From Selaginella tamariscina (Eukaryota; Streptophyta; Lycopodiopsida; Selaginellales; Selaginellaceae), in assembly GCA_003024785.1 (NCBI GenBank), contig PUQB01000299.1, positions 211,597-275,596 of the forward strand: 64,000 nt of DNA, in the 5' to 3' direction. The translations under genes were made by a program, and so were the position numbers. Positions 1 through 64,000 of this stretch are shown here, one piece after another. Every line of letters starts with the position of its first letter. Position 1 is the first letter of the stretch. The notes beneath the pieces were generated by a model. The model searched no databases. It was not told where the DNA came from and worked only from the letters and a program-made list of their open reading frames with translations.

Positions 1-187
1 ATAGACATCTTGCAGAAGTAAGATGGAGATGCATATGTACAGCTAATATTCAGAATTATGTTTAACATATAATAGTTATATGTCGTGCACAGAAATGGCG
101 TCTTATGTATTCTAGTGGGATCGGTCTTTCATAAATATATTGTATATACAAGTTTTGATTATTCATTTACTTATTTATTTCATTCAG

Positions 188-26371: not shown

Positions 26372-27965
26372 ATGTCTTTTCCAAAAGATTGCATTGCATT
26401 CCTCTATGTCCACCGCGACAACGGTGAAGTAGTATTCACCTCCAAAGGTGCTTCACACTTCTGTCCAATCCCAAGGGGCAGCTTTGTGTTTGACGACCTC
26501 ATGGCGCCTGGGATGAACTCGAGAGCACACAAGGAGCAAACGCGTGCCCGATCCTCTAGCATTAACAAGTTTGTATTGCCACTTGTAGACGCACACAATG
26601 GTTCTTCTTGGAGTGCCCATGTGTACGAGATGTTCACCCAAGGCAGTTTCACGGTGTAGTTTTCACCAGGGACGACGAAGGAGTGGAGTACTTGGCAACA
26701 ATATTGCTAAACAAAGGTGCAGATGCTAGGTCCTCGCTCCTCCTTGCGCCTGCCACCACCCCAGGCAAACGAGTGCAGAAGCTACAACATCAAAGCTGCT
26801 CAAGGTGTTCGAAACAACATCTCATACACTTCCCAAAGCACGATCAGTGGTTCACAAGCGGTGGAAAACAAAGATTTGCCGAGCAAGTGAAGTACCATGT
26901 TGTGCGGAGCATTCCCTTGCACCTCGTGTTGCCAGCTTTTCCTGCTAAGTCGTGCAACAGAGGCAAGGTCTTGGGGAAACAGCCCGACAAAGGCGAGGAG
27001 CTCGCTATACACAGCATGAAGATTGTTGCCGACAGAGTAAAGCTCATTTATCCTCCAGGTGTTCACTTTAACATCGTCTCCGACGGACATGTCTTCTCCG
27101 ACTCAGGCAAGTGTTTAAAGCTGTTTGTTACACGCTGTCGCTAACACATAATAATTATGAATGACAGTGGGGATTGATGATGCTGACGTGGACACGTACG
27201 GCCACATGTTCAGGACAATGGCAGCCACTTTGTACCCGGGGCTGCTCACATTCTACGGCCTGGACGATTTCCTGTTTGACAAAATGGAAGACAAAACATC
27301 CAAGAAGATACAACGGACCACGTTAGAACACCCTGTGAAGACCGTGCTAACCGACCGTGCCGAGATGGCAAGGAAGATTCTGACCTTGTTGTTTGGGAGC
27401 GACGAGTCGTGCTTACAGTACGACATTAAGAATGACAAAGAGACTGCAGCACTTTACTGTGGTTTCAAGAGGTTTATGCTTGAAGACCTTGCCGGACACG
27501 AGAGCTACAAAAATCTGGCTACAAACGTTGCTAGGAGAAAGCTCTGCAGCCGAGTTGCGTTTCTTATGATTCAGAGAAACAGAGCCTACTCGACCATGGT
27601 GGAATGGCTCTTTCCCATCCAGATTCGCATCTCCATCCACCCGTAAGTGTGTGCGTGCGTGTGCGCCAATGTTTTCTTCTTGACGAATTTGATTATCTAT
27701 TAGGCATCCAAACAAAGGGCCAAAGTACGGGATCAACCTTATTCATCCATCGCTGGTTGCAATGCAGAGGGACTCCAATGAGAAGCTGTTTCACACACCA
27801 ACACCTTGGCATAATGCAGTTCTCGAGATGCCCAACGGGAAGTTCTTGCTTCTGCCTTGTGCAACAATTCTGAATGGATTTGTAATCGACGGTGAAGCCG
27901 TGGTCAAAGTTGAGCCTTCGTATTATCCGGATGGAAGACCTAGCCACTTCAAGGCAGTCCCATAA
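26372..27965 (+). CDS. Isocyanide synthase, DIT1/PvcA family, copy 1 (3 exons)
   Basis: DIT1/PvcA-family proteins convert an amino-acid amine into an isocyanide (isonitrile) group in bacteria and fungi, or make a formyl-tyrosine-type precursor in yeast. Exons: 26,372-27,106, 27,168-27,642, 27,704-27,965 (TAA). Intron 1 starts GC (CAG/GCAAGT), intron 2 is GT-AG. Core blocks: HFPKHDQWFTSGGKQRF, LHLVLPAFPAKSCNRGKVLG, DKGEELAIHSMK, YPPGVHFNIVSDGHVFSDS, VGIDDADVDTYGHMFRTM, and C-terminal IRISIHPHPNKGPKYGIN and PWHNAVLEMPNGKFLLLP. About 490 residues, with an N-terminal extension of ~140 residues before the core that I do not recognise. Compared with copy 2 it lacks one base near 26,645-26,652, which breaks the frame between FTQG and HGVVFTRDDEG; the rest is open. 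A second doubtful frame point is 26,765-26,815, where copy 1 has GAAAC and copy 2 GAAC. Confidence 0.87.
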
Positions 27966-28387
27966 ACGCCAAGCTACTTAAGCCTAGGCAGTTGAAAATG
28001 GCAAACATCTCGCTTGCTATAGCTACTTCTAGAAGTGTAGAATTCGTTTAACTGGAATGCACACGAGAAGTTTTGAAAGTTAATATTGTGTTTTACTATA
28101 TGTTTCAATTGCCTTTAGCATCTTTTCAATCTTGTTTATCAAGGCTCATCATCTTCTCATAACTGCATTCTTGAAGTAAAGGATATGTGATTTGAATATT
28201 AAGTCTTCTTTACTTCACATATCTCTCTTTTTTAAGCCATATACATATATAATGCAAGGAGCAATTAGCAACGCGGGGAGACAAAAGAAGCTTTGAAATA
28301 TGGAGAAGGAAGCCCAATGAAAGATGCTGGTAATGCTTTATGGATCTCTTTCTCTTGTTGCCTCCAGAGTTCTTCGGTGGCTGTTTT

Positions 28388-29520: not shown

Positions 29521-32400
29521 CTACTACAAAGCACATGTTACCTCCACTGCAAATTGCGACATCCACCTCAGGTGTTAATCAACTCGCAACAAAGTGCAAA
29601 ACACGAGCGAATATAGAAAATGAGTTGGACAAAGACAATTTGGCTCAATTAAATCTTGTTATTTACTTCTATATCAAAGAAGATATCGGTGATTTGAAAA
29701 TAACAATGCCGCTTCCAATAAAGAGACGATGGAGCTCAACATTAAAGATCTACCTGCAGTAATACAAAGGAAAAAAATGATTTATATTTGTTTGATATAA
29801 TAGTGAACTCAAAAACTGGTAAGTTTTAACCTCATTTCATAACGCAAAAAATAATTTAATATGAAGATTAAATCACATGCATGTCATAAATACACAAAAT
29901 TTTTTGTACGGTTGATTCTACATGGGTTTTAGCTTAAGTGGCTATAAACCCCACCCCTTTAAGTATATTAGAAATCATATATTAAAATATATAATAAGTA
30001 TTTAATATTTATAAGTTTTGAATTTCACCTTACATCTTTATTAATTAAAACCTAGTATTCAGTAAATTTTAAATCTAATTATAAAAACACATAATTAGCA
30101 TGGATGGAAGTGTTTTAAATGCATTTCCATGTGACATCATATATATTATATAGTAGTTGCTATAGATTGTACATTATATATGAATTGTAATGTATAAAAT
30201 GACATTAATTTTAAATAAAAATGTTAAAGTTTATTAACTCATTTTTCTTTGGTAGTGTGTACGTATACTAAACATATATACGCATTAACCCAAACACTAT
30301 TATCTTATGTTCTTAAAAAAACATAACATATATACATTCTAATCTATATACATATGACTCTATATTGTAGTTGATTATTATTATTGCTGTGTAATCTTTT
30401 ATTTATCATTTTACATTAGTGAGTGACCAGTCAAATATCAACCCATATTATTTTCATTTAATTAAAACACACATACACATACACACAACACTTTATTTTT
30501 CATTATTAGTTTTCAATTTTTTTTTTAAAAAAATTGAATTAATAAAATTACAATTATATTTATTCCCTTGAATTTGAATTGGACGTCAATTTAAAATTTA
30601 AAATAATTATGCTAGAGTCTTATCTTCTTTCAATCCTAATTTATTTCTCATATAACATATTATATTTTTAAACCATCATCATCTCTTAAATATATAAATT
30701 TTTCATATACCTTATTAAAAGATTTTCTTAATTCCACGAGAAACAATTCTTGTAGTTGAAGTACAAATAAAAAATATATTATAATATATTTAATAATGCT
30801 CAAATATGCATATCCATTAAAATGATTATTCCCTTCAACTTTATAAAATTGTTAACAATAATTATTATAAAACTCATTTACATTCTAAAGTTGAAATAGA
30901 CGTTAAAGAGTTATTAACACTATATAAATTAAAATTTAATTATATTAAATTAATATTTATCATTGTCCAATTAGAATTAATAATTAAAAGTTATCACATT
31001 AAAACCAAGTAACCAAAAATTTAATGATCTTTATTTAGGATGTTATTTGTAAAATAAAAAGAAAAAATAAACCCTAACACTTTAAAGTATTTGGGTTCAA
31101 TATATATAATAACTTTAAACTTTTATATGATAATTTATTAAAAATGTAACATATGAAGAATGTCACATTAATAAAGCTTATTAACAAAGCCATGTAATTT
31201 ACATCTTATTTTAATGTTTTATAACATTTTAAAATAATATTTATATATTCTTAACGACTTTATACATTGTGTAACTTACTTTAATTATGATATTTTTATT
31301 GTTGATATTAATACATGATTTAACTTATGCTATACATTCTAAAATAGAATGAAAAGATAAAGTTAACGTTAAAAAATAAAAATACATTTCTTTTTTTAAA
31401 CAAAATGAGAATAATAAATTCATCACAAGAAGATTAAACAACAACAAACTCATTATAACATTAATGACATTTCATTATTTAATTTTAAGTTTATAAATTT
31501 TAATTTTTTAATTTTAATAATGAGATTTATATTTGAAGATAAAAAATCCATTGTAATTAGTTTTTATATCAATAATTGTTTTTTTAAAGTATTTTAATAT
31601 ATAGTTTCTAATATACTTGGAAGTTAAAATTATACAAAATCAACCATATAAATTATTTTGTGTACAAATCTAATTTTTAACATTCACATGATTTAATCTT
31701 CATGTTGTGCATTATGAAAGCGATTGTTAAGTATTGTTAACTAATCAAAATAGGGTTGTTATGTTAAAAAAACATTTAACATCCATCCATCCACTTTTGT
31801 TGCCCTAGTGAATTCACTATTAAATTTAACAATATAAATATTTGATGTAGATCTTTAATGTTCAGCTTCATCATCTCTTTGGTGAGGAGTGACAGGTGCA
31901 TTGTGTATGTTTTGAGTATTTCTTTAGTACTCATTTCATTTAACAACCGCATTGTATGGATTCTAAAGTAAAAAAGTAAGATCTAATTCATCCAAGTTGT
32001 AGTTGTTGCTTACGTGTTGTATAGGTTTCCACGTTTTATAACTTGTAAACACCTTCACTTTTGCTATGGAACTCTTGCAAGTCGAAGTTGTCTTGCACTT
32101 TGTTGTGAGCTGATTAACACCCTAGGTGGAGGTAGCAATTTGAGTGGTGCATGTAACATGTTCTCACCCATAGTGTTTTATGGATCTCTTCATATTTCTT
32201 CAGTGGCTTTTTTTTGTTGTAGAGCATCTTTTATTGAGCTTCCTTCTCCGTATTTTGAAGCTTCTTTGTCTCTCCGCAGCGCTAAGTGCTCCATATGTAT
32301 ATGACTTAAAAGAAAGAGATATGTGAAGTAAAGAAGACTTAATTCTCAAATCATATATCCTTTACTTGTAATAATGCAGTTATGCATCGGTACATTGAAT
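29521..32400. other. Inner part of the inverted repeat, AT-rich, no supported gene
   Basis: Very AT-rich, with weak symmetrical similarity between its two halves (for example 29,835-30,000 against 31,590-31,720, and 29,545-29,600 against 32,085-32,160). Open frames at 29,535-29,762 (+) and 32,014-32,304 (+) are not conserved as protein between the arms, so I do not call them genes. The similarity of the arms suggests the original duplicated unit was larger than the gene and that this part has decayed. Confidence 0.6.
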
Positions 32401-32625
32401 TTCAAAGATGACTTAAACATGAATTGATGAACAAGATTAACAAGATGCTAAAGGGAATTGAAACATATACTAAAACACAATATTAACTTTTTAATACTTG
32501 TGGTGTACACTCCAGTTAAACGAATGCTCAAGCTATCTACACGTCTATGTATAACTCATCAGAAGTAGCTATAGCAAGCGAGATGTTTGCCATTTTCAAC
32601 TGCCTAGGCTTAAGTAGCTTGGCGT

Positions 32626-34216
32626 TTATGGGACTGCCTTGAAGTGGCTAGGTCTTCCATCCGGATAATACGAAGGCTCAACTTTGACCACGGCTTCACC
32701 GTCGATTACAAATCCATTCAGAATTGTTGCACAAGGCAGAAGCAAGAACTTCCCGTTGGGCATCTCGAGAACTGCATTATGCCAAGGTGTTGGTGTGTGA
32801 AACAGCTTCTCATTGGAGTCCCTCTGCATTGCAACCAGCGATGGATGAATAAGGTTGATCCCGTACTTTGGCCCTTTGTTTGGATGCCTAATAGATAATC
32901 AAATTCGTCAAGAAGAAAACATTGGCGCACACGCACGCACACACTTACGGGTGGATGGAGATGCGAATCTGGATGGGAAAGAGCCATTCCACCATGGTCG
33001 AGTAGGCTCTGTTTCTCTGAATCATAAGAAACGCAACTCGGCTGCAGAGCTTTCTCCTAGCAACGTTTGTAGCCAGATTTTTGTAGCTCTCGTGTCCGGC
33101 AAGGTCTTCAAGCATAAACCTCTTGAAACCACAGTAAAGTGCTGCAGTCTCTTTGTCATTCTTAATGTCGTACTGTAAGCACGACTCGTCGCTCCCAAAC
33201 AACAAGGTCAGAATCTTCCTTGCCATCTCGGCACGGTCGGTTAGCACGGTCTTCACAGGGTGTTCTAACGTGGTCCGTTGTATCTTCTTGGATGTTTTGT
33301 CTTCCATTTTGTCAAACAGGAAATCGTCCAGGCCGTAGAATGTGAGCAGCCCCGGGTACAAAGTGGCTGCCATTGTCCTGAACATGTGGCCGTACGTGTC
33401 CACGTCAGCATCATCAATCCCCACTGTCATTCATAATTATTATGTGTTAGCGACAGCGTGTAACAAACAGCTTTAAACACTTGCCTGAGTCGGAGAAGAC
33501 ATGTCCGTCGGAGACGATGTTAAAGTGAACACCTGGGGATAAATGAGCTTTACTCTGTCGCAACAATCTTCATGCTGTGTATAGCGAGCTCCTCGCCTTT
33601 GTCGGGCTGTTTCCCCAAGACCTTGCCTCTGTTGCACGACTTAGCAGGAAAAGCTGGCAACACGAGGTGCAAGGGAATGCTCCGCACAACATGGTACTTC
33701 ACTTGCTCGGCAAATCTTTGTTTTCCACCGCTTGTGAACCACTGATCGTGCTTTGGGAAGTGTATGAGATGTTGTTCGAACACCTTGAGCAGCTTTGATG
33801 TTGTAGCTTCTGCACTCGTTTGCCTGGGGTGGTGGCAGGCGCAAGGAGGAGCGAGGACCTAGCATCTGCACCTTTGTTTAGCAATATTGTTGCCAAGTAC
33901 TCCACTCCTTCGTCGTCCCTGGTGAAAACTACACCGTGGAAACCGCCTTGGGTGAACATCTCGTACACATGGGCACTCCAAGAAGAACCATTGTGTGCGT
34001 CTACAAGTGGCAATACAAACTTGTTAATGCTAGAGGATCGGGCACGCGTTTGCTCCTTGTGTGCTCTCGAGTTCATCCCAGGCGCCATGAGGTCGTCAAA
34101 CACAAAGCTGCCCTTGGGATTGGACAGAAGTGTGAAGCACCTTTGGAGGTGAATACTACTTCACCGTTGTCGCGGTGGACATAGAGGAATGCAATGCAAT
34201 CTTTTGGAAAAGACAT
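32626..34216 (-). CDS. Isocyanide synthase, DIT1/PvcA family, copy 2 (inverted, apparent frameshifts)
   Basis: Mirror copy of the gene at 26,372-27,965. Exons on the minus strand: 34,216-33,485, 33,423-32,949, 32,887-32,626. Introns have the same sequences, including the GC-AG intron 1. Exons 2 and 3 encode the same protein as copy 1. Exon 1 differs by single-base losses: one G of the GGGG run near 34,118 (after CPIPR), one A near 33,777, one C near 33,563 and one T near 33,537. At about 33,952 it keeps the base missing from copy 1 (FTQGGFHGVVFTRDD). Either both copies have begun to decay separately, or the indels are consensus errors and both are functional. Copy 2 has no 4CL-like neighbour. 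Confidence 0.83.
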
Positions 34217-34531
34217 GATATCTTTCTGCAGAAGAGGTAACCGTGAGTACTAGTTGTTTTTATTTTACTTTTCAAGTGTATGCAACTTTTGCTTTTTTGT
34301 GTGCTTGATAATTGATGGGGCGGGACTGGATATATATAGTAGGAAGCACACGCCACACCCGTAGGTTCCATTGGTTTCAAACTCGTGCGTTTTAATAAAT
34401 TCAACTTTGAAACGTACACGTGTTTCAAGCTAATATGTCAAGTTTAGTGTGTTTCCAGTGGTCAAATCAAGGCATATGCAACCGTTTTTGACCGACTCAA
34501 ACGAAGATCGATACTCCACTTCCGAATCTAA

Positions 34532-35726
34532 AACATGCATCATTAATTCATTCAAAATTTGTGATAATTTTTCATAAATGTATTTTGTTTTGTATGCATA
34601 ATATAGTTTTTGAATGTGCATGAAATGAATATTTATTATTTTAATTTAAAGTTTAATTAACATATCATAATTAAACTTGAATCTCTTAATATAATTACAT
34701 TATGCATATTAACAAAATTTATTTTTGAATACGTTAAATAAATTTTGAACGTGAATTTATCTAAGTTTGTTCGTTGACTTACAATTTATTAATATAAACC
34801 TGAGAATTCACAAAAATTAGTGATAATTTTTCATTTTCACAACAGAATTTTTTGAATGAAACATTAATTTTCATGTTCTTAAAAAATAAAAATGTAATAG
34901 TAAATAGCAATTTTAAATAACATATCATAATTAAACCTTTAATCTCTTATGATTAATTATGTATACATAACAAACTTTGTTTTTCGCACCTTTATACTAT
35001 GAGAATATGCATAGATTATTATTTCAATAAAATACGTATGGAAGTTTATTATGAACTAAAGAGAAAAAAGAAAAAAGTTAATTAATAAGACAAAAATTGA
35101 ATATGATTAACTCGCAAATTGTGTTAAACTATAAATGCTTGAATTATAATCCTAATTTTCTTATACAGAGGTTTTGGTATAAAATATTTTTAAATTTAAT
35201 ATATTTCTTACTTTAATATACGTTTGTTGCACCGTTTGTTATAAAAACATCCTTAAAGTATGAGCATCAACATCATCTAACATATTATTACTTTGATTCA
35301 TGACAAGCCCTCTGCATTGCATACGTAAATGTTATGTATATTATAATGTCAATATTATAATCCCAATACATTGTTTGCAAATATGAACGGACTATCGATT
35401 GATTTTCGTGTTTTATTTCAAACTCATTAATACAAACTTCAGTTTTAAGAAAATGAAAAATAAAAATAACCAGTTACTATGTACAGTGATCGGCACGTAC
35501 ATAGGCCATCGGGCAATCAATGACAAGCAACAACATAAGTCAAATTACTATTCATTCCAAACCAACACAAAGTAACACATATTGTTGGAAGTCATTATGT
35601 ACGTACTGCAAATATGAAATACTGGTCTTAGTATACAAAATTAAAATCATGTTTTTTTCTTTTAAATATACCATACATATTGACTATATTGTTTTAATAA
35701 ACAAAACTGCAAAATCATTTACAGAC
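34532..35726. other. AT-rich intergenic region
   Basis: About 1.2 kb between the outer end of the inverted repeat and the 3' end of the TBL gene. It contains two imperfect copies of a block with AACATATCATAATTAAAC (near 34,659 and 34,919) about 260 bp apart. I see no gene or terminal repeats. Confidence 0.6.
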
Positions 35727-43199: not shown

Positions 43200-46100
43200 T
43201 CGGAAGGGTGTAAGTTGGTTAGGGTTCTCTTGTAGACGGGCCCGGATCTGGAGGAACATCAGGAGGAGGTACTGGTGGATCTGTAGGCGGCACAACTTGT
43301 TCCCGTTGCACAAAATGCTTCAACCGTTGCACATGTACAATCTCTGGAGGATCGGGTTGAATGTCGTGCCGAACCTCATAAACCTGTGGCCCTACTTGCC
43401 GTAGCACTCGATACGGTCCTTTCCACTGAGGAAGGAGACTCTTAGCTAAACCACGTACCGTAAGCTTGGGAAAACGAACCAACACCAGTTCATCAACCTT
43501 GTACTCCGTAGGAGGACGATGATGCGAGTTGTAGCGTTGTTGTTGTCCTACTTGTACGCGGCCCAAGTGTTCTGCTGACTCCGCACGACCAATGGAAGAA
43601 TGCTCGTCAGATACCGATCCCACGACCTAGCATCAGCAGCTCGCGGTAACCGAGAAGGCAAACCCAACTCCGTTGGCAACACCGGGTCATGACCATACAA
43701 GAGCTTATATGGGGAAGTACCAATGGAACTTTGAACTCCAGTGACATAAGCATATCGGAGAGACGGCAGATAACCATCCCAATCCGAATGTTGAAAGTTC
43801 ACATACTTCGCGATCATCCCCTTGAAGGTTCTGACGAGCCGTTCCACTAAACCATCCGTCTGAGGATGATAAGCACTTGTGAAAGTGTGGCGTATCCCTA
43901 GTCGAGACGTCAAAACATGAAATGCCTCAGCCATAAATGCAGGACCATTATCCGAGAGAATTCGCTCCGGACAAGAATGCTGAAACACGACCCGATTAAG
44001 GAGAAACTGACCAACAGCAGAAGCAGTCGCACTAGCAAGAGCACCAACTTCTACCCAACGAGTTAGGTAATCAGAAGCAATAATAACGTACTCGTTACCA
44101 GTAGTTGACCGGAAAAGGTCCCATTAAATCAAATGCCACCAACTCAAATGGACGAAAAACTGCAATTGACTCCAACCGTCCTTCCGAAGCACATGGGGGA
44201 GTATTGCGAGCTTGGCACCACACACAAGCTACGCACATACCGAATCACATCTCCTCGCAACTCCGGCCAGAAAGATCTGCGCAGCTTCTCCATCACCCGA
44301 CGATGTCCCATGTGCCCACCAAGAATAGGAGAGTCATGGTAAGCATGGAGGAAGCGTGGAATGAATTGAAGGCACCACCAACCGCAAAGGATCATCTGGA
44401 TCAGTCCCCACAAAATAAAGAAGGTCATCCTGAAGGCGATACTGTGAATGTAAATGCCTGAAAGGCAAGTCATCAGCAAGTGATGCAGGATTCTCAAACC
44501 CATCACGAAGCCTTCGAATCCACGGCTCAACCTTTTGAGCTTCCCGAACCTCATCCAAGACGGCAAATCTAACTCTGCATTCTGCGGACACTGAACGTCA
44601 AGCACAGCAACTGCTGATGGTACGGAATCTTCATCCAAAAAGTCCACTGAAGCTGGAACAACTGGTTCCTCTGGGGCAACAAGAGAGAGAAGGTGGAAGA
44701 GGAGCCCGAGAAAGAGCATCAGCATCAGCCATGGAACTCCCTGGACGATGAACAACTTCAAAGTCGTAAATTTGAAGTTTCAAGGCCCACCGAGCAGTAC
44801 GACCAATCAAATTCTTCGCTTAACAACGAAGTGACTGCTGCATGATCGCCTTCCAACAACGTCCGCGAACCATGCAAGTAGGCATGGAGCTTCTAAAACC
44901 CCAAACTGCTGCTAGACACTCCTTTTCTGTCGTGGAGTAATTCACCTCTGCTGGCTGCAATGTACGGCTGATGTACGCAATGGGATGTCGTTGGCCAGGA
45001 ACACTCGTACTCTCCTGCATCAATACCCCGAGGCCGATGTCAGAAGCATCTACACGCAAGATGAAAGGACGGTGTAATCCGGGTACGCCAAAACTGGAGG
45101 AGTCGTCAACAACTCTTTGAGATCTGCAAATGCCTGCTTGCAATCCTTAGACCAAACAAAAGAAGTCATTGACGATTTCAACAACGGCGCAACGGTGCAG
45201 TACGATCTGAAAGATGATCCACAAAACGACCCAGATATTGTACCTTGCCAAGAAAGCGTTGCACATCATTCACACACTTTGGCGTAGGGAACTTCAAAAC
45301 TGCAACTAGTTTGATCGACTTGCAAACACGTGAAATGCGATAACCCAGATAAGTGGTGTCCTTTGATCCAAACACACTTAGATGGCTTCAACTTCAAACC
45401 AACTTCCCGCAGTCGATCCAAAACCTTACGTACATCACCGACATGCTCCTCCCACGTTCCATCCGAATGGATCAAAACATCATCGATGAAATCGGCAGTC
45501 ACCTCCGGCATGTCGCAAAGAACCTCGTCCATCATACGTTGGAAAGTTGCTGGAGCATTGCTCAAACCGAAAGGCATCACCAAGAACTCGTACAGGCCAA
45601 ATGGTGTCGAAAAGCAGTCTTGGGAATGTCCATGTCAGCCATCGGAACTTGCCAATATCCAGATGCGAGATCTAACTTGGTGAACCAACGGCTCCGCCCC
45701 ATCGATCCAAAAGGTCTGCAGTATGAGGAAGTGGGTACACATCTGAGACGGTTACCTCATTTAACGGGCGATAGTCAATGCAGAATCGAACGCTCCCATC
45801 AGGCTTCGTCACAAGGTGAGGTTCGCACGCCCAAGGACTTCGAGATTTCCGGATAACACCCTTCTCCAACATCTCTTTGACATTCGCTCGTAAGATCTTG
45901 AGCTCCTTTGGTGATCGACGCCGAACAGGTACCTTGATTGGCCTAGCTTCTCCAGTTGGAATAGGGTGGCGTGTCGCAATCTTGGCCCCAGATGACAAGT
46001 CGAAGTTGAAAAGATCAGCATACTCCTTCTTGAGTTGATCAACAACTACAGCACGACGATCATCTGATGGATCCAGAAAGGAAAGGAAGAGCATGAAGGA

Positions 46101-46520
46101 AAATGGTTGGAAACAGGGTGAGACAAAAGTGATGGAAGCAGAGGTGGAAGTAGATGGACGAAGTGGAATAGAAGTAAGAGGAATGGGAAGAAATACGAGG
46201 GAGAGTCAAACAAGGGGGAGACTTTTCAAAGTCACACTTGGCATGATTGCGAGTTAACCAATCCATACCAAGAATAAGGTGAAAAGCTTGACTCGGCACC
46301 ACCCGCAAAGATTGAAGCTCGAGCTCACGATCATCCACACGAACAACAATGTCCACTTCATCGCGAACAAGCATGAGTATGTCCGTTGCCGTACAGAATG
46401 AAGACTGGTTCTTCCGCACGACGCAAATGAAGGCTACAACGTGTAGCAACAGATTGAGAAACAGAGGACAAACTTGAACCTGTATCCACCAATACTGAAA
46501 GGAAAACAGGACGTGGCGTG
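43200..46520 (-). pseudogene. Pol of Gypsy family C (protease, RT, RNase H, integrase), frameshifted
   Basis: Protease: VLVDTGSSLSSVSQSV (about 46,497-46,450). RT: EMLEKGVIRKSRSPWACEP, SVRFCIDYRPLNEVTVSDVY, MPFGLSNAPATFQRMMDEVL and the catalytic box ADFIDDVLIHSDGTW, so the usual YxDD is FIDD. RNase H: PFILRVDASDIGLGVLMQE and NYSTTEKECLAAVWGFR. Integrase: zinc part near 44.3 kb (GGHMGHRRVMEKLRRSFWP), core ERILSDNGPAFMAEAFHVL and TFTSAYHPQTDGLVERLVR, and a GPY/F-type tail KSLLPQWKGPYRVLRQVGPQ. The segments lie in different frames and carry some stops, so no full polyprotein is encoded as read. No chromodomain is seen after the GPY/F region. Confidence 0.88.
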
Positions 46521-46599
46521 ATTAAAACGAGCTTGAAAAGTGAAAACCGGATGATTTGGTGCCGAGTGAACCCCTTGATGATACTGAAAGAAAGACGGA

Positions 46600-47572
46600 G
46601 GGGTCACTAATTTATTCGCACGAGGACCCTCCTCTACTCGTGCGATTCGTCGTTTCCCGGAAGATCCACTGCATCACAACCTTCCACTGCAGCAGCACCA
46701 ATCGGACGTTGTTGACGCCATGGCCTCCATCCTGGAAATGGGGGACCAATCGGGAAACCGTTGACAGCGCCGATACGTGTGTCCAACCTCATCACACGCC
46801 CAACAACGAACTGCACGTCCACGTCCTCGTCCACGGGCCCACCTTGTGCTGGTACACGAGCGGCAACAGCCTCAACCTCCATCGGAGCAGGTCCATCCCC
46901 AACATGAAGTGGAACAAGAGCACGTGAAGGCGCAAGTGGGAGAGGTGACGACTCATATCGTTGTGCCAGCCTCAAAGCATCATCAAGAGTCACTGGAGCT
47001 AGTGCATGCACAAGCCCCACAAGGTCTTGACGAAGTGCTGGCCACAACATACCTAACTTGATGCGTTCCGACATGTTAGGTTCTGCACGCAGCAAAAGGC
47101 TTCGAAAGCGAACACCAAACTGCATCACCGACTCAGATGGCTCCTGACGAATACGATGCAACTGCTGAAAAGCATCATCACAGTCGTCCGCATGCCCAAA
47201 TGCACGTTTGAAGATCTCTGGAAGAATATTCCAATCTCCACGAGTTGCAACGTCCAGACCATTGTACCACTGCAACGCCGTCCCTTGAAGACAAGTAGGA
47301 AACTCGCGCAAACACTGAGCACCGTCCCACGAATGATATGTGGCAACCAAATGAAGTGGTCAAACCAATGGTACACATCATCTCCAGGATTTCCGCGAAA
47401 GAAATCCGGCCGGACACGGGGTTTGCAACATGAGTAGGAGGAGTACCCCCTGTGAATGAGAATGATTGTTCAGTTGCACACGCATGGCATCCAACAACTG
47501 CATGAGTAACTGCTCCACAGACAAGGGATTTGCCTGTTGTGGATTCATGGACGAAGAAGAGACAAAATCCAC
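46600..47572 (-). pseudogene. Gag of Gypsy family C, one apparent frameshift
   Basis: Starts MDFVSSSSMNPQQANPLSVE at 47,572. After a frame change near 47,360-47,400 the capsid continues with LREFPTCLQGTALQWYNGLD, FKRAFGHADDCDDAFQQL and SESVMQFGVRFRSLLLRAEP, then APMEVEAVAARVPAQGG. The order and the ALQWYNGL/QEPSESVMQF blocks are those of plant Gypsy gag. No clear CCHC knuckle is present; the tail is Arg/Trp/Gly-rich (FPGWRPWRQQRP), which could serve as the nucleic-acid-binding part. Confidence 0.85.
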
Positions 47573-55402: not shown

Positions 55403-55410
55403 AATGTGTA

Positions 55411-55580
55411 GGGGTCTCGGTGAAAAGGAGGCTCCGGCTCATGAGGCTTCATATTATTCTAGTATATTCGTGGATATTCTAGGGTTATTCTAGCATATTC
55501 TAGAATATTCTTAAGAATATTCTATAATATATAAGTTTTTTTAATATGCCGACTGGCTTAATATGCCGATTGGCTTAATA
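55411..55580 (+). repeat. Left terminal/subterminal region of the MULE
   Basis: Terminal GGGGTCTCGG, then GGAGGCTCCGG, then at 55,452-55,535 a run of near-palindromic TATTCTAG and GAATATTC words (including TAGAATATTCTTAAGAATAT), then TGCCGACTGG (55,547-55,556) and TGCCGATTGG (55,564-55,573). The same word types in the same order from the outside inwards occur at the right end. These are good candidates for transposase-binding sites. Confidence 0.7.
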
Positions 55581-55673
55581 AAGCATTATCCTAAACCCTA
55601 AACCATTTATCCTTGTAGCACCGGTGGGTCATGAACTTTGCTGCAATTCACCAGCAAACGGTGGACCTCCATC

Positions 55674-58600
55674 TCACTGAGCGATCGCCTTTGTAGAAAA
55701 TATGTGACGTCCGGGTTCAAGCCAAGCACACGGCTGTAGACGAAGTACATGTGTACACATGGGCTCCAACTTTTGCTCTTTCTGAAATGTAGAACAACTG
55801 CATGAAGGATAAGTATTAATAGTCACCTTTGCAGAGTCATTTCCTGCCGACACAACGAAAGCCTCCTTCCGTCCTCTAGCTGTCACTTCAACATTTCGCA
55901 CACAACCTAAAAACGTCTTGGCCTTGCGGAAATTCTTCTCTTGTTCCTTAGACATTTTTGTTGGAGTCCGAACCATACGTCCTTCGAAAGGTGGAATTGT
56001 TGTAGATCCAGCTCCACGTGGTGGCGATGGTGTTTTGTCCTTCTGACCCTCATCTACTCTTCCTGCCATCCCCTGTAAACCTTCCAGAACAAAGCCTGCA
56101 TCCTGTAGTTCTCTGACCTCCTCACTTGTCAGCTTCGTTTCCTTGAGCACAGGCCAAACCGTTGGTGGTGTTGGAATACGTGACCGAAGAATTTTGCCGT
56201 TTGGCCGCGTGAAACACCCTGAATCTTTTGGGCAGAACCACATCATCTGTTGTACATACTCCTCATTCCCCAAGGCATCAATGTACATTCGTTTTCCATA
56301 GAATCCTGGTGCTGGCACTCTGCTTGGATAACCGATTGGTTTTCCACACAGAGCAGTTCCTTCCTGATTCATCCCCAAACACTTAACCTTACTGGATGCT
56401 CCGATTCGTCTGATGGCCCACTCTGTTTGAGCAATCTCTCTCTCCGAAACCTCTTCGAACCTTAACCTCTTTCTCCTGTTGTTTTGGACCACCCGCTCTG
56501 TGTACTCTACATCATGTCTGTGTGAACGTCGAGCATCAGACTGTTCTGTTCCTGTGACTGTTCTCCTAACAGTTTGCACTCGAACGTTAGTGGTACACGT
56601 GAACTCCGGGCTGGTCAAGTGTTCCTCGCCTTCCACCAGATTAATAATTGTTGATGGAGATACACTTTTCCCCTCAGAGAGTTTGCGTTGCACTCGTTTC
56701 AACAGAGTTTCCTTCGAAGGCCCTGACCCTGTATACCTCCCTTCTATTGCCGCTTTCACCTTCGCACTCTGCATAACTGCATCGGTGAGGTCTAACATTG
56801 TCGCCTCCAGCAGTGGTACTCTTTTGGCCAATCTTGCTCTTCTTGCTCTCGCGTGAATCACTTCAGCATTGTTTGTAGTTGGAACGCTCGCGAGTCCTTC
56901 TTCTGTCATGTCTCCCAGTTCCGCCATGGAGATGTGGTCCTCATGCCTGATCCACCAAGACAGCCATGTCTTCAAAGCTCGAATGTTTGACGCTCGTCCT
57001 TCCCAAAAGACTCGAGAATTGCCAGTTGTTCTTTCTTAGATTGTTCATTCAGTGCTGCAGGCCAGGCACGAGCAAGCTTCATGTGTTCTTCGCGATGTTC
57101 TTCTGCGATCCATTTCTTTGTCACCTGACGCACAGATTGCATAAAGTGAAACAGACAGCTTCTTTCCCTCCCTTTCATCTTTGCTCCGTTGTTGAATACT
57201 TGGCGCAAGGCTATCCATATCGCTCCAGCCTCATCCGACATGAAACCAGCAAAGTTGACATTCTCCAAACCCTGCTTCTTACAAACCTCTAGCATTGTGT
57301 TCAAGAACTTCAGCACTGCAACATTATCTTCGCGGCACATATCTGCGTAAGCTATAGTCACCATGGATCTGACACTGCAAGAGAGCGTTAGATAACGAAG
57401 ATTAGAAAGTGTTATGAAGAGTTTTACAACTTACAATGGGTCATAAAGGTGTATTCCAATTGTCGCCCAGTCTGGTATGCGGTGCGTGTGGTCCAGAACA
57501 ACCCATTGATCATGAAGGTCTCCTCCACTTTGACACCTTCTGATGTACTCAACTCCTGAACCCGGTCCCTCAACTGTCATTTTGAAGATCAGAGGCTGCT
57601 CCTCAGCACCATGCAGTTCCATCCCTGGAACATGTATGACGTGAATGAAAGGTATTGGCAGCTTTGTCTTCAGCTCCAGAAGACCCTCGTAACCCTCTCT
57701 AAAGTGTGTCTCCTTCTGTCTTGATTGTGTAATCCAGTCCCGAGTCCTAAAGAAAAGGTCACGTCAGTGTGTAGAGATCTAAAAAAAATACCTTCGATGG
57801 TTTGTTAGAGGTTCAAGTTTTGAGAGTAAACCAGTGTACGAGACTTCTCCTTCTTCCTTGAAAAGTTCTTCAAAGATGAGCTCACGCGCGGCTTGAAACT
57901 CAATCACTCGTTGATTGGTTCGCGGACTGCTCTTTACCACGTTGCTGACACTAGATCTGGCTCGCTGAACGTTTGAAGCTGACACTGAGGGGCTGACTGG
58001 ATGCTGATGAACACCTCTGTGAATGAACAACCTTGTAAAAGAAATGTCGTCTGGCAGAATGTAGTACACATAAGCCGGACAAGTGTGCACCAGCAATGGC
58101 TCCTCTCCACAATGCTTACATTTTATGCCTATTACTTTGCCTGTCTCAGTTGTCTTTGCCTTCTCCACAGCACCCTTGAAGTGACATTCATTTGCTTTCT
58201 TCTCAAAAGCCAAGTAGGGGCAAGTAGGATTGATGCATTGGAGATGTCCGACACATGAACTTCGACTGACTCGCGCCGGAACATGCCAGTGTGTTGTGCT
58301 CGGGTGTGTCCAATGGTAGCAGCCATCCTTGCGATTCATCCCCGAGTACTTCTCTGTGCTTTCTGTCTTAGGGGGAAGTTCGAAAATGACATTTCCATTG
58401 TATATCTGCGGTAGTTCAGAGACTCGTTTAACTTCAGACGAACCAATGAGATCCTTCCCTATCCTACATTTGTCTGCTCTTAGAAGACACACCAGCATGG
58501 ATTCCTCACGCTCCTCTGTCCGCAACCTGAACAACGGGCCCTTTGCCGGGCACAATGTGTAAAAGACAAACTGGTTTGATGCATTGCCTTCTGGTAACAA

Positions 58601-58771
58601 CTCCACATCTTCTCCAGAACTCGCAGAAACTGACATCAATTGAACCACATGTATACTGAACCAACAAGGAATGTTGAAAGCAATGTGAAGATCATGTTCA
58701 AACACAAAAGCATTTCCATCTTCATCGACTGGGAAATCTTTGTCAATGCCTTCATAGGTAACTCTGGCCAT
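55674..58771 (-). CDS. Mutator-like transposase with zinc-binding N-terminus and C-terminal SWIM finger, 3 exons
   Basis: A DDE transposase for the element it lies in. Exons on the minus strand: 58,771-57,791, 57,746-57,435, 57,374-55,674; about 1,000 residues. The N-terminal third (residues ~165-260) has Cys/His blocks CVGHLQCINPTCPYL, IGIKCKHCGEEPLLVHTC and FIHRGVHQHP, resembling a DNA-binding zinc domain of the WRKY-GCM1/FLYWCH kind. The core has WVVLDHTHRIPDW (first Asp, ~409), FAGFMSDEAGAIWIALRQVF (second Asp, ~475) and SCLFHFMQSV, the CxxH-type block of MULEs. The C-terminus has the SWIM finger SCSCSTFQKEQKLEPMCTH (CXC...CXH, ~956). Introns are short (44 and 60 nt). One 1-nt shift is needed near 56,975-57,000 (before NIRALKTWLSWW). 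It diverges from the methyltransferase gene. Confidence 0.83.
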
Positions 58772-59233
58772 GACAACGCAAGGAGAAAGCTCGGTGGTTT
58801 AGGAAAGCAAAGCAAAAGATTAAACACACTTTCCCTCGCCAAAAAAAATTACAATCGTTAACAATAAACGTGAATACACGTTTGTATATAATTAATTCTA
58901 TTGCCCAGTTCACAGTGTTCTTAATGATGTCCTCTCTAGTATCACCGATTTAATTTAATTTCTACCTTTTATGATTTGAAATATCTTCACATTTACCAAT
59001 TATTCACATATTTTAAAATAAACCCTAAATATTAATGTCACATTTATTCCGTAGGGTTCACTGTTTTCATTGCGGCTAGGGTTTTTTGGTAGATAGGGTT
59101 TACTGTTTCCATTGCGGCTAGGGTTCTTTCAATCTCAGATCTGTTTCCACTGCGGTAGATCCAGAGGGTTTCTTTAATCTCAGATCTCAGAGTTACGGTT
59201 TCCACTGCGGCGCCATCCATTTCGACTCGATTC
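58772..59233. promoter_or_regulatory. Divergent intergenic region of the MULE
   Basis: Between the transposase start codon and the leader array. The first part is AT-rich. From 59,050 to 59,210 a ~50-bp unit with ACTGTTTCCATTGCGGCTAG recurs about four times with increasing divergence, some copies with AATCTCAGATCT. By position it should contain promoters for both genes; no TATA box is obvious on the plus side. Confidence 0.5.
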
Positions 59234-60353
59234 GTGCAGCGCCCAAGTATACAATGGAGATTTCTGTGCCGATTTAGATTCTCGGCACCATCCTGCTCAG
59301 CCGGCGGCCACAAGGTATGTGTAATTTCTGTATTTTATGATTTGCTGCTCAAGTATTTCTTTTTCCAGAGATATAGGGTCTTCTTATTTGTGCCGACTGA
59401 GAGCAACGGCACCATCCTGGTTCAGTCGGCAAACACAAGGTATCGTCGATTTATTTATTTTTTTCCTTGCGGCTCAAGTATACGTGTCACAATGTTTTTT
59501 TTCAGAGTTAATGGGTCTTTCCATTTGTGCCGACTGAGAGTGACGGCACCATCCTGGTTCAGTCGGCAAAAACAAGGTATTTTCGATTTTTTTTTTTTGC
59601 TTTCTGGCTCAAGTATTCGTATCACAAGGTTTTTTTTTCAGAGTTAATGGGTCTTCCCATTTGTGCCGACTGAGAGTGACGGCACCATCCTAGTTCAGTC
59701 GGCAGCCACAAGGTATTTCGATTATTTATTTTTTGCTTTCTGGATCAGTATTCGTATCACATTGTTTTTTTTCAGAGTTAATGTGTCTTCTCATTTGTGC
59801 CGACTGAGAGTGACGGCACCATCCTTCTTCAGTCGGCAGCCACAAGGTATTTGATTATTTATTTTTTGCTTTGGCTCAAGTATCGTATACAATTGTTTTT
59901 TTTCAGAGTTAAGTGTCTTCCATTTGTGCCGACTGAGAGTGACGGCACCATCCTTCTTCAGTCGGCAGCCACAAGGTATTTTGAATTGTTTTTATATTTT
60001 GCTCTGCGGCTCAAGTATCCGTATAACAATGTTTTTTTTCAGAGTTATAGTGTCTTCCCATTTGTGCCGACTGAGAGTGACGGCACCATCCTTCTTCAGT
60101 CGGCAGCCACAAGGTATTTTGAATTAGTTTTTTTTTTCTTTGCGTCTCAAGTATTTCTTTTAAAACAGTTAATGGGTCTTCCCATTTGTGCCGTCTGAGA
60201 GGGACGGCACCATCCTATCTCAGTCGGCACCATTATCTCTTCTGTGCCGTCTGACAGAGTCGGCAAACTATCTCAGTCGGCAGGTTTTTTCTTCTACATC
60301 TCTCTGCCGACTGAGAGGGTCGGCAGCATCTAGCTTGAGTCGGCAGCCACAAG
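59234..60353 (+). repeat. Tandem array of mini-exon-like hairpin units (5' leader of the methyltransferase gene)
   Basis: After a first unit ending CCACAAG/GTATGT at 59,314, seven further units follow at 59,369-59,439, 59,506-59,576, 59,642-59,712, 59,776-59,846, 59,907-59,975, 60,043-60,113 and 60,169-60,353. Each is preceded by a T-tract and CAG and followed by AAG/GTAT or AAG/GTTAG, with spacers of 54-67 nt. Each unit carries the inverted pair TGCCGACTGA...TCAGTCGGCA around a conserved GACGGCACCATCC (for example 59,664-59,673 with 59,695-59,704); the last unit has three such hairpins. Units contain upstream ATGs (AATGGGTC) and have mostly 71 nt, so they are not multiples of three. The next acceptor (CAG, 60,417-60,419) leads into the exon with the start codon at 60,430. 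Confidence 0.82.
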
Positions 60354-60429
60354 GTTAGTCATCTTTGTTTGTTTTTTTATTTTTCTCCTCATCAATTGAC
60401 TTGTGTGTTTACTTTCCAGAGTTCCCAAA

Positions 60430-63400
60430 ATGGTGAGAGCTTCAAAACGTCTACTAGAGACTGCGCCTGATGAAGAGCCACGGGAAGAGAAGAGGATATC
60501 GAAGCAGAAGCGAGGCAAGAGAGGAGAACCATCTAATGTACCAAAGGAGGATCCTCCAGTGACTCAGTCTGGAGTAGTAGCAGTTGAGCAAGAACAGCCT
60601 CCACCAACAATCACAGATTTCCCGGAGAGCTCGTCGCAGTTGCCTCCTTCATCCGCTGAGGTTGCAGTCCTGAACGAGCAAGTGCAGATGACAGAGGCAG
60701 CTGAAGCTAGCGAGGACGACTTGGAGGAGGCAGTCAGCAAAAAGAGAGGCCGCGGGAAAGCTGATTCAAAAGGCAAGAAGGCGAAGAGCGATAAGGAGCC
60801 GAAGGAGTTATACAGCATACCGGCGAGCCTGCATTTGGAGAGCTCAGCAAACCTGCTCGACAAAATTACTATCAAGGGACTTGGTGATCCTCCTGATGTG
60901 CCCATCTGCAGAATACATTCCAACGAGGTGGTTCGACGAGTGAACCCAGGGGACTTGGACAGGCTGGTGTCATCGTTGAAGAAGGCTGGTTATCTACGCA
61001 ACACGGCCATGTTCATTCTGTCCATCGGAGATCGACTCACTGCTGAGGAGCTATCGGAGCTGTCGAAGGACACGATTCAGTACGAGCAGCACCGGTCTTT
61101 CGAGCAAGCTCTTACTCAGCCGGAGTACAAACAGTGGGCTTCAAGGCTCTCAAACAGGAAGTTTAGGCTGGGACGGGAACCATAGGCTACAGGCTTTGCA
61201 GAAGCTGTACCGAGAGGATGCAGAGGACAACCAGCGATGGGCTATTCGCGTTCGATCGAGTTTCATCTCCACGGAGAACCTCGACATTCTTCAATTGGTT
61301 TCGATGTTCCAATCGATTAACATGTGAGTATTTTCTTTTCTTTTTGTTAAGAGTTTAGACTTACAGTTTCGTTGAACAGATCTTCAGCAACATCTGTGGA
61401 AACAACGCTACCACATATTCTCCTCGCTGTAAAGGCGGTCTGCACTAGTACAGAAGGAACTCAGAAAATCCTCGAGTCACTCACGGAGGTTGATCGTCTT
61501 GAGGTGCGGAAGTGGAAGGAGAGTTCATCAGGAAAGACGGCTTGGCATCCTCTTCCGAACCTGATCTGCGCAAAGATACTTTTCAAGGTAACCTCCGATT
61601 TAATTTATAGGAAAGAAATTTTTAACTTGTTCTATGTGCAGAACGAGATCGACGATGATCTCGACAGAGCAGTCACCAGTGCTAAGGGCAATCCACAGGT
61701 TGAGGTGAACCTGAAGCAGCTAGTATACAAGAAGCATGACAAGCGTATGCACAAGTTCCTCTCCATCATAGACCCAGACTTGGGGGAGGAGTGGTTCCAG
61801 AAGGTGACAAACATCTCTCATAAGCAGTGTCGCTGGATGGGCATTGAGAAGCTGTATGCGATGTCAAGGGCGAAGATTCCAAACATGCTGCGACTCCGAT
61901 ACCTCAACAAGCTCACCCGTCTCGAATCCAAGGCAGAACAACAGACACTTGGGCTACCGGGCATGCAGGACAAAGAGTGGATCAAGTGGTTCACCTTGGA
62001 CTTATATTGGAAGGCTGTGCGCGAGGAAGCCATTCAGATCCTTAAGGGGTTGCGAGAGGATGGTGAAGAAGTTGGAACGGATGTCGACTTCATGAGCTGG
62101 TTTGACGAGATGAGAATTCGGAGCAAGTGCCTGGTCTTTCAGCCCTTCCATGACTGCATACGGTTCACTTATTCGATGGAGCCGAATGATGGAGCGTGAG
62201 GAATCTGCGCGTCGGATGATATGGAGGTAAGCTTTCAATCCAGCATTGCTACTGTCTGACTTTGTTGCAGGTTCATACTGGCGAAGCAAATGACACCGTC
62301 CCATACGATGAAGCTGTGGACAGATCATACAAGCGAGCCTCACATGTGGTCGAAGAGCAGAGGAGCTCTAACACCGTTCGAACGGGAGCATGTTCCATTC
62401 TGGCTCGACTGTCCGTCGCAACAGCCACCAGCTTGGGAGAGCACACTATTCGACATGCACGCCAATGATCTACCAGCGATTCTTTGGGAGCCAGAAGTAG
62501 AGGCTATCAAGAAGAGCAAGATGAAGAAGACGGTGCGGAAGACAACTACACCTGCAAAGGGATCGGGAGCGGGACCAAGCTCTTCTACAGCACCTCCGCC
62601 AGCATTCGACTTTACAATCAATGAGGTACAGCCACTTGTAGCTAGTTTGGACATCAAGGACGACCTGATGACCTTCATCCCGACCCTGGCTGCATCCCGT
62701 GGATCCTACGACCTAGCTGTGTGCGACATGGAGGAGATGAGCAGGTCTTTCTTCGAGCCAGGTGCTTCCCAGACAGAGGTGTACACCAAGCTCCGAGAAC
62801 AGGTTGACAGACTACATACGGTTGAGTCACAAACGTTGTTCCAGGAAGTGGTAGGTGAATACGGCTTCAACCTCATCATCCTCGACTTGCCCAATGAGCT
62901 TGTATATGGAGGTGCTAGCATCAACAAGGACATTGTGCAGCTAGATCCGGTGAAGTTTGAGGAGGCCTTGCAGTTCAGTGGAATGCACTTGGCAGCGAGT
63001 GGTTTCATGGTCGTCTTCGCGAGTTCTCCTTCTGTTTCGGCGGTGATTCAGGCGGCTGCAGTAATCAACTTGGAGGTTGCAGGGACTTACAGCGTCTACC
63101 GTGCACGAGGCTGGGGATACCGTGACAAAATTAAGGTAAGCTAGCTATTCAAGTTCAAGTTTAACTTGGTCTATGTGGCAGGATAACTTGTTAGTTCTCT
63201 TGGTGCTGCAAAGCTCTGAGAAGAAGTCGAAGAGGCCAAACCCTCTGGCGTTGACGAACACGATCCTCGTCGACACTGCCGACCGTTATCAGGAGGCTTG
63301 GTAAGGAAGTGCTTTGCTATGTTTATCCTAATGGAAGATTGTGCAGGATTATGATTCAACCGAAGAGTGTTCGACTCATGCAGCTTTTGATCGAGCGTCT

Positions 63401-63644
63401 CAGTAGACCTGGCGACCTAGTCTGGGATATTGGTTCCGGAACCGGGTCATCATTGTTAGCTGCCGTCGAGCTCGGAAGGAATATTATAGGAACCGAGAAG
63501 AGTTTCGAACTCTCTAGGTTGGCAACAAACAAGCTTGCAGAGAACATTAGACCAGAAGAGTTACCTACTCAAACACCTCCACGTCCAAGCGTAACTGGTG
63601 GTTCGAGAACTGCAGCTTTACTTAAGATGAAGAAGAAACTTTAG
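60430..63644 (+). CDS. ParB-like domain / beta-class DNA (N4/N6-type) methyltransferase fusion, 6 coding exons
   Basis: Exons: 60,430-61,323, 61,380-61,587, 61,642-62,226, 62,271-63,135, 63,182-63,300, 63,347-63,644; about 990 residues; introns 44-56 nt. Residues 1-130 are charged and Lys/Glu-rich (KKRGRGKADSKGKKAKSDKE), probably nuclear-localising. Residues ~150-260 look ParB-like: VPICRIHSNEVVRRVNP, a helix with LVSSLKKAGYLRNT, and WDGNHRLQALQKL, the G-x-HR turn. The middle is helical and unassigned. The C-terminal third is a methyltransferase in beta order: motif IV region GFNLIILDLPNELVYGG (~760) before motif I PGDLVWDIGSGTGSSLLAAV (~910) and LGRNIIGTEKSFELSRLATN. Motif IV reads DLPN rather than the usual D/N-PP-Y/F/W. 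Two small indels are needed (near 61,165-61,172 and 62,180). The start ATG is the first after the last leader splice site. Confidence 0.78.
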
Positions 63645-63714
63645 CTAATGTATATTGAGTAATAAATTAAGCTAATATAAAAAAAAATTAAAAAGAAATA
63701 CAACAGTTTTAATA

Positions 63715-63836
63715 GAATTTTTTTTGCCGACTGAGGCCAATACTGCCGACCAGAAAGAATATTCCAAAATATTCTAGAATATTCTTGAATATTCGAGCCA
63801 GGCCTCCTGGCCCAATCCTCCAAAACGGCGGCACTC
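63715..63836 (-). repeat. Right terminal/subterminal region of the MULE
   Basis: Reading from inside out: TGCCGACTGAG (63,725-63,735), TGCCGAC (63,744-63,750), a GAATATTC-type array at 63,756-63,795 (AGAATATTCTTGAATATTC), then GCCAGGCCTCCTGG and the end CGGCGGCACTC. In reverse this mirrors the left end, although identity is loose outside the short motifs. Confidence 0.7.
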
Positions 63837-63844
63837 AATGTGTA

Positions 63845-64000
63845 GCACATGTACTGATCCGCATGCATTAGTCACTCTTCTATAGATTAAATTAGTGAAT
63901 TTAAGTAAATTAAATGAAAATCTCTTACATGGAATGAAACATTGAATATAAATGCATATCCCTATATCAGAAGTTTGTTATGAATGTGCATTTGAAACTC
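63845..64000. other. AT-rich flank right of the MULE
   Basis: 156 bp after the right target duplication. It returns to AT-rich host sequence; nothing recognised. Confidence 0.6.

Follow-up and report, generated by a model that had tools for sequence, protein, structure and literature searches.

A methyltransferase-like gene lying beside a Mutator-like transposase raises two questions: does the gene belong to the transposon, and what might its protein do there? We addressed both in the window, a 64,000-nucleotide stretch of Selaginella tamariscina DNA, and in further copies from the 300.7-Mb host genome. They reveal a recently amplified MULE-like family with a divergent second gene, whose 992-aa product carries a C-terminal beta-class methyltransferase-like domain with an altered motif. 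Eukaryotic transposon-borne methyltransferase genes are a recently noticed class, for which the portions of the literature consulted give no tested function; here they come as a young, high-copy family with intact accessory genes and a candidate target motif, TGCCGACTG.

Boundaries, copies and age of the element

The window holds one member of a DNA transposon family that is very young and high in copy number. Direct reading and alignment of other copies place the whole transposon at 55412–63836 (8,425 bp). Its target-site duplication, AATGTGTAG, was read directly on the left (55403–55411) and right (63837–63845); the sequence-only reading had recognized this duplication but called it 8 bp, and the exact repeat is 9 bp. 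A 9/9 match at the element's spacing occurs at 5 of 55,557 window positions, the element included among the five. The terminal inverted repeat is weak (GGGTCTCGG... / ...CACTC); in the commonest end sequences, a count by eye gives about 14 agreements over the first 22 bases, and some MULEs lack terminal inverted repeats.

The family recurs across the genome with its ends preserved. Besides the one in the window, the genome has at least 38 copies of the methyltransferase-like gene that are nearly full-length and 99–100% identical, and we fetched 20 element copies with flanks, chosen by their match to this accessory gene. In 19 of the 20, the alignment to the window element starts at base 1 or 2 and runs to base 8418–8425; the repeat array splits several of these alignments into two overlapping pieces. 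The remaining copy, L012, begins at element base 39. Perfect 8–10-bp duplications, differing in sequence and lying no more than 3 bases from the predicted ends, flank 16 of the 20, which led us to reject a chance repeat at the window element's flanks and bears out the shared ends and duplications that the sequence-only reading had wanted checked. These lengths, and the 9 bp of the window copy, lie within the 8–11 bp given for MULE target-site duplications in the excerpted text of PMC6446971. The duplication of L009 has one mismatch, that of L023 is doubtful only and at shifted ends, and L012 and L020 have none. Mean divergence among copies is 0.23%, pointing to a very recent burst.

Both genes travel with the element. 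The pair is present in all 20 young copies, with both ends in 19, supporting a Mutator-like transposon with an integral beta-class methyltransferase-like gene. Three of four older copies also have the pair, and in one of them, L044, the genes are still adjacent at ~85% DNA identity. A methyltransferase gene standing without the transposase had been named as evidence against this arrangement; the older copy L043 comes closest: the 4.6 kb retrieved on the relevant side contained no transposase, which fits truncation.

Integrity varies among the copies. Both genes are broken in the window copy, an uninterrupted accessory protein is encoded by 12 of 21 copies, and 15 of 21 lack one base at 57005, a shared transposase frameshift. 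Many transposase indels are private to single copies, perhaps reflecting assembly noise. The copies were chosen by their accessory gene, and we therefore make no claim that it outlasts the transposase in intactness.

A MULE-like transposase and a methyltransferase-like protein

The transposase is encoded on the minus strand in three exons. Exon 1 (57792–58771) holds a Cys/His-rich region to which the homologue P0009 aligns; exon 2 (57435–57746) holds the first catalytic D (WVVLDHTHR), read by eye and in the P0009 alignment; exon 3 (55674–57374) holds the second D (FMSDEAG), CLFHF, the E (TTNNAE) and a SWIM-like CxC...CxH. In the window copy two breaks, near 57005 and 55779, disrupt the exon 3 frame; the stop it reaches at 55674 therefore differs from that of copy L013, where reading continues further. 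The DDE residues and the CxxH between the second D and the E, assigned by eye, are D412, D478, C504-x2-H507 and E602; P0009 keeps both D residues and the CxxH, and the E falls outside its aligned part. The earlier description of a MULE-type DDE/SWIM transposase fits these by-eye motifs tentatively; Pfam's MULE model was listed neither for the window transposase nor for P0009, and SWIM (PF04434) reached E 0.0034 and 17.3 bits, beneath the Pfam cut-off of 19.6.

The accessory gene occupies six exons on the plus strand. Exon 1 (60430–61323, broken near 61166 in the window copy) encodes a charged N-terminus and the ParB-like region with its DGNHR motif. Exons 2 (61380–61587) and 3 (61642–62226, broken near 62189 in the window copy) lead to exon 4 (62271–63135), the first half of the methyltransferase-like domain, where motif IV reads DLPN. 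Exon 5 (63182–63300) is followed by exon 6 (63347–63644), with motif I (DIGSGTGSS) and the LGRNIIGTE block. Profile searches and alignment to bacterial relatives uphold the beta-class order of motif IV followed by motif I, the SAM site: Pfam PF01555 (N6_N4_Mtase) matches at E 4.3e-9 over model positions 164–219 of 221, and a PHROG DNA methyltransferase at 4.8e-11.

The ParB assignment stands at the level of motifs only. By eye, DGNHR and its flanking pattern are present, but profiles lend no support: a Pfam search with the intact region returned no ParB family at E up to 10, NCBIfam and PHROGs gave none up to an E of 1, and a Pfam search with a protein fragment gave only PF18763 (E 0.067). A single-sequence structure model of the region was useless (pLDDT 35), and the best match in a search of solved structures (E 0.63) was to unrelated proteins.

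Motif IV is altered throughout the family. The beta-class consensus is (D/N/S)PP(Y/F/W). Bacterial relatives P0001–P0006 align across motifs IV and I and all read DPPY at motif IV; DLPN stands at this position in every one of the 12 intact proteins, as it does in 10 of 12 older relatives, and the two exceptions among the latter are both decayed. DLPN keeps the first acidic residue and loses the first proline and the aromatic residue, and the pattern [DNSE]P[PAI][YFWHL] occurs nowhere in the 12 intact proteins. We rejected decay confined to the window copy, since DLPN is common to all 12. These changes pose the question of whether such proteins mark DNA or merely read it. Judging by sequence, the accessory protein is conserved and possibly non-catalytic; the missing PPY is not in itself proof of lost activity. 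Ka/Ks for the gene is 0.24–0.41 (13 comparisons, 12 loci), a range that mixes constrained and neutral branches because the older copies are dead.

Several wider searches were unproductive. When 5.8 billion sequences were searched with the full-length protein, none of the 7,999 candidates scored reached E 10 or better, and viral contigs gave four pattern matches and no confirmed relative. Five phage methyltransferase genes, taken from 30 listed matches out of 142 records and inspected for ParB fusions, are all short (636–810 bases) and lack a fusion. Separately, the PF01555 matches include a second group with a 106-aa frame; by an eye count, 109 of the 150 matches listed belong to it.

Motif arrays and described relatives

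Short motifs mark both ends and the center of the element. TTCTAGAATATTC-type repeats form a left subterminal array (55455–55530), mirrored on the right (63756–63794); all nine window matches to TTCTAGAATATTC, allowing at most one mismatch, lie at the element's two ends, in keeping with the mirrored arrays first read from the sequence. On the plus strand, a TGCCGACTG / TGCCGATTG motif pair in a 17-bp tandem unit lies at left (55541–55580), TGCCGACTG and TGCCGAC motifs at right (63725–63750), and between the genes a central array of ~136-bp tandem units (59265–60380), in most of which TGCCGACTG...CAGTCGGCA form an inverted pair. Seventeen of 19 exact TGCCGACTG matches in the window are inside the element. 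The 9-bp motif occurs 14–21 times per copy in 21 of 21 copies, versus 0.03 expected from shuffling, and the flanks of all 20 fetched copies together hold one match. The central units also contain, by eye, polypyrimidine-CAG and AAG/GTAT signals resembling splice sites, and the methyltransferase-like gene may thus have these units as repeated leader exons.

Related gene pairings have been described in algae. The sequence-only reading knew of no described plant element with such a gene pair, a statement that needs correcting in view of PMC12477816, the one paper in the literature searched that describes a ParB-methyltransferase/transposon pairing. Its excerpted text reports that Sola1-1_Ec32 of Ectocarpus has a ParB plus N4/N6 methyltransferase gene running opposite to its transposase, and refers to further cases in green and red algae (Iyer 2011, Petroll 2025); ParB-methyltransferase accessory genes of algal transposons are, on that text, already published. 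Both elements share the opposed accessory gene and the N4/N6 methyltransferase domain (1,104 aa there, 992 aa here), whereas the Ectocarpus element is 21.5 kb with a Sola1 transposase and a reported ParB-like domain, and ours is 8.4 kb, MULE-like and ParB-like at motif level only. What is new is the MULE as carrier, the altered catalytic motif and the motif arrays.

Two other systems offer partial parallels. The bdelloid N4CMT and a Marchantia 4mC methyltransferase, also mentioned in PMC8885841, are likewise bacterial-type amino-methyltransferases in eukaryotes tied to transposons or DNA marking, but these enzymes act on transposons or the whole genome and are not described as transposon-carried in the available part of that paper. 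VANDAL MULEs, according to excerpts, carry VANC anti-silencing proteins (PMC5735166, PMC10398659), and VANC targets a 9-base motif that is tandemly repeated in non-coding regions (PMC5735166). The window element likewise pairs a MULE with an accessory protein and is enriched for a short motif in non-coding tandem arrays; an anti-silencing role for its protein is putative. VANC is not known to have a methyltransferase fold.

Possible roles of the accessory protein

We tentatively favor, as somewhat short of probable, a self-made sequence reader that would bind the TGCCGACTG arrays in the manner of VANC. Its N-terminal part, perhaps ParB-like, and its methyltransferase fold would bind the 9-bp repeats at the two ends and within the intergenic array; once bound, the protein would keep the element transcribed or transposition-competent, much as VANC does for VANDAL MULEs. 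Such a reader would need no base methylation. TGCCGACTG could equally be a transposase binding site. We regard as possible, with some doubt, an evolutionary account in which loss of the catalytic motif preceded the family's radiation and selection keeps the resulting pseudo-methyltransferase as a sequence-specific reader of the element's own repeat arrays, an anti-silencing or transposition-licensing system made from a bacterial-type enzyme.

Methylation by the element of its own ends, as first suggested, runs against DLPN at the DPPY position. The view that the protein is enzymatically active, methylating N4-cytosine or N6-adenine despite its unusual motif IV and marking the element's repeats so as to hide them from host silencing or to time transposition, nonetheless draws on the well-kept SAM motif I and LGR-IG-E block, the retained acidic residue and purifying selection on the gene, and the authors of PMC12477816 read the Ectocarpus protein likewise in the text available; with the aromatic residue and first proline gone from every intact protein and no substitute motif elsewhere, we judge it fairly unlikely. 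That TGCCGACTG is common to both ends and center would suit a transposition co-factor that binds them with the transposase, bridging them or promoting integration, as would accessory genes left intact where shared frameshifts break a transposase acting in trans. Selection of copies by accessory-gene match inflates that intactness, however, and with many private indels perhaps reflecting assembly noise, a co-factor seems rather unlikely. Very improbable is a Pack-MULE-like capture, in which the gene would be a passenger from the host or a bacterium and do nothing for the element: MULEs often gain additional genes, according to the excerpt of PMC6446971, but the persisting adjacency in L044 and the Ka/Ks values, well below 1, led us to reject it.

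A young transposon family

The last 8.6 kb of the window hold one complete transposon (55412-63836), in which a transposase gene and a methyltransferase-like accessory gene diverge from a central repeat array. An exact 9-bp target-site duplication, AATGTGTAG, was read directly on both sides; the sequence-only reading was right about the duplication and one base short on its length, which it gave as 8 bp. Both genes of the window copy are disrupted: the transposase gene has breaks near 57005 and 55779, its partner near 61166 and 62189.

The family is real and young. When the accessory gene was used to search the window's assembly (300.7 Mb, 1,391 contigs, the window being C614:211597-275596), 40 of 886 candidates were scored, giving 41 matches. 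At least 38 besides the window span no less than positions 3-3215 of the 3215-base query at 99-100% identity, and one further place was split in two. Of the 38 copies we fetched 20 together with their flanking sequence, working down from the best match and skipping one near a contig start (C1181), so the fetched copies are not a random sample. With the repeat array left out, the 21 copies, window included, differ pairwise by a mean of 0.23% (0.01-0.73%), and four copies have a nearest-neighbor difference of 0.014%.

Looking for the same ends and duplications in other copies, a check proposed with the original reading, bore it out. Nineteen of the 20 fetched copies align to the window element end to end; in the remaining copy, L012, the alignment begins at base 39. 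We scanned for 8-10-bp duplications within 6 bases of each end, tolerating one mismatch. Sixteen copies carry a perfect duplication no more than 3 bases from the ends, and in 8 of these it is 9 bp and lies exactly at both predicted ends. The duplication of L009 has one mismatch, L023 has only a doubtful 8-bp duplication with shifted ends, and L012 and L020 have none within these limits. The duplicated sequence varies from copy to copy, as expected for independent insertions.

A divergent transposase and its methyltransferase-like partner

The transposase gene runs on the minus strand from 58771 to about 55674 in three exons. By eye, its product carries D412 (WVVLDHTHR), D478 (FMSDEAG), C504-x2-H507 (CLFHF), E602 (TTNNAE) and a C-terminal CxC...CxH. 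A SWIM match (E 0.0034) falls under the curated cut-off, and the Pfam MULE model is not among its matches. One protein relative (P0009; E 1.3e-56, 31% identity over 500 aligned positions) keeps both aspartates and CLFH and likewise has no Pfam MULE match listed. The available text of PMC6446971 describes MULEs as having 8-11-bp duplications, SWIM in many clades and, in some cases, no terminal repeats. As sequence features, the transposase and the 8-10-bp duplications are consistent with a divergent MULE.

The transposase frame is open through 1,019 codons in one of the 21 copies (L013); in L009 it ends at codon 952, beside a private insertion. One-base gaps are common to 15 copies at 57005 and to five at 58222. 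Many remaining indels are private, most of them of one base, and could reflect noise in the assembly. The transposase regions of L010, L011 and L014 hold 7, 32 and 19 indel events, while their accessory genes hold none; the contrast may stem from such noise, from recombination among copies or from a biological cause.

The accessory gene (60430-63644, plus strand, six exons) encodes an uninterrupted protein in 12 of the 21 copies (992 aa in 11, 995 aa in L027), at most three substitutions from the commonest form. The beta-class methyltransferase C-terminus claimed from sequence was upheld by PF01555 (domain E 4.3e-9, whole-protein E 1.1e-8), PHROG methyltransferases (4.8e-11) and bacterial-type DNA modification methylases (eight matches at E ≤1 among 6,549 candidates, best 4.1e-4). 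In alignment with six of those eight, DLPN falls opposite the DPPY of motif IV and DIGSGTGSSLLAA opposite DPF-x-GSGSSLLAA. CcrM motif IV aligns to DLPN likewise, that segment alone scoring negative. The 12 intact proteins contain no other motif-IV-like tetrapeptide. Among 12 older relatives picked from more divergent accessory-gene matches, 10 have DLPN; the other two (L039 and L040), which differ at motif IV, are both decayed. The motif IV change was therefore most likely in place before the family radiated in this genome.

The N-terminal region carries WDGNHR together with a stretch resembling R-x-NPGDLDRLVSSLKKAGYL, which we take to be similar to ParB/Srx domains. Of the ParB signature first proposed here, the motif DGNHR stands, but the intact region matches no ParB profile in Pfam (E up to 10), and NCBIfam and PHROGs yielded none; a 51-residue fragment gave 0.067 against PF18763. 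ParB-like identity is a candidate lead.

Compared with the young copies, four whole older accessory genes have Ka/Ks values of 0.24-0.36 and nine C-terminal pieces values of 0.30-0.41 (these 13 comparisons cover 12 loci, because L033 and L044 are one locus); three transposase comparisons gave 0.22-0.52. Any codon containing a gap, a stop or three differences was left out. Neutral decay of dead older copies raises these values, yet all are well under 1.

Homologous loci with the methyltransferase gene but lacking the transposase and ends had been named as evidence against the sequence-only reading. A further accessory-gene search gave 172 matches (136 scored of 2,404 candidates), and we read the pairing in four older copies, at about 97 to 85% DNA identity. 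The genes adjoin in three; in the fourth, L043, no transposase was found in 4.6 kb on that side. A PF01555 search (150 scored of 739 candidates) gave a 106-aa frame in 109 of the 150 matches listed, counted by eye, versus 129 aa in the window family. The 106-aa matches have nearly equal scores (for example C982:535977-536144 and C726:1256917-1257084 in G000, the assembly searched) and probably represent a second group, another methyltransferase-carrying repeat.

Precedents and a possible reader of the repeat arrays

The closest precedent, described in the available text of PMC12477816, is the Ectocarpus Sola1 element, 21.5 kb long, with a 1,104-aa ParB and N4/N6 methyltransferase gene opposite its transposase. 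That text also points to cases in green and red algae and suggests that proteins of this sort bind the transposon that encodes them and modify it. A transposon-carried methyltransferase gene is therefore not new in kind, and the window family is a variant. The initial impression that no described plant element has this gene pair holds for MULEs, none having been found with such a gene in a literature search of partial coverage, but not beyond them, given the algal transposons.

All 21 copies contain TGCCGACTG, 14-21 times each with the count differing among copies, chiefly as inverted pairs within central units; the mean in 200 shuffles of the window element is 0.03. One or two TGCCGAC lie within 250 bases of each end. 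In VANDAL21 and VANDAL6, according to the available text of PMC5735166 and PMC10398659, VANC anti-silencing proteins target a short motif that is tandemly repeated in the element's non-coding parts, the VANC21 motif having nine bases (PMC5735166). The window family has similar arrays of a repeated short motif. By this analogy, our working mechanism is that the element would make its own reader protein for the TGCCGACTG arrays; we infer both binding and effect.

The central units (59265-60380) resemble a small exon repeated many times over, each unit bordered by splice sites at either edge. If they are transcribed, the leader RNA could carry a series of TGCCGACTG hairpins. The leader also contains TAGGGTTT repeats.

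Other features of the window

A glucan synthase-like open frame lies at 3183-3641; along with the spliced genes and the TAGGGTTT repeats of the leader, it suggests that the host is a plant. An inverted 2.3-kb duplication (26037-28328 versus 32223-34548, 95% identity) carries in its first unit two open frames matching DIT1_PvcA (pyoverdine/dityrosine biosynthesis) in Pfam, at 27161-27643 (7.6e-32) and 26566-27141 (2.1e-26). In the second unit, 32948-33430 has a translation identical to that of 27161-27643, and the open frame at 33702-34160 has no match. Adjoining the DIT1_PvcA pieces is an AMP-binding (acyl-CoA ligase-like) frame on the minus strand (24610-25737), together possibly a small gene cluster. 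LTR-retrotransposon pieces (RT RNase H, gag, integrase core) occupy 16068-16841 and 43551-47359.
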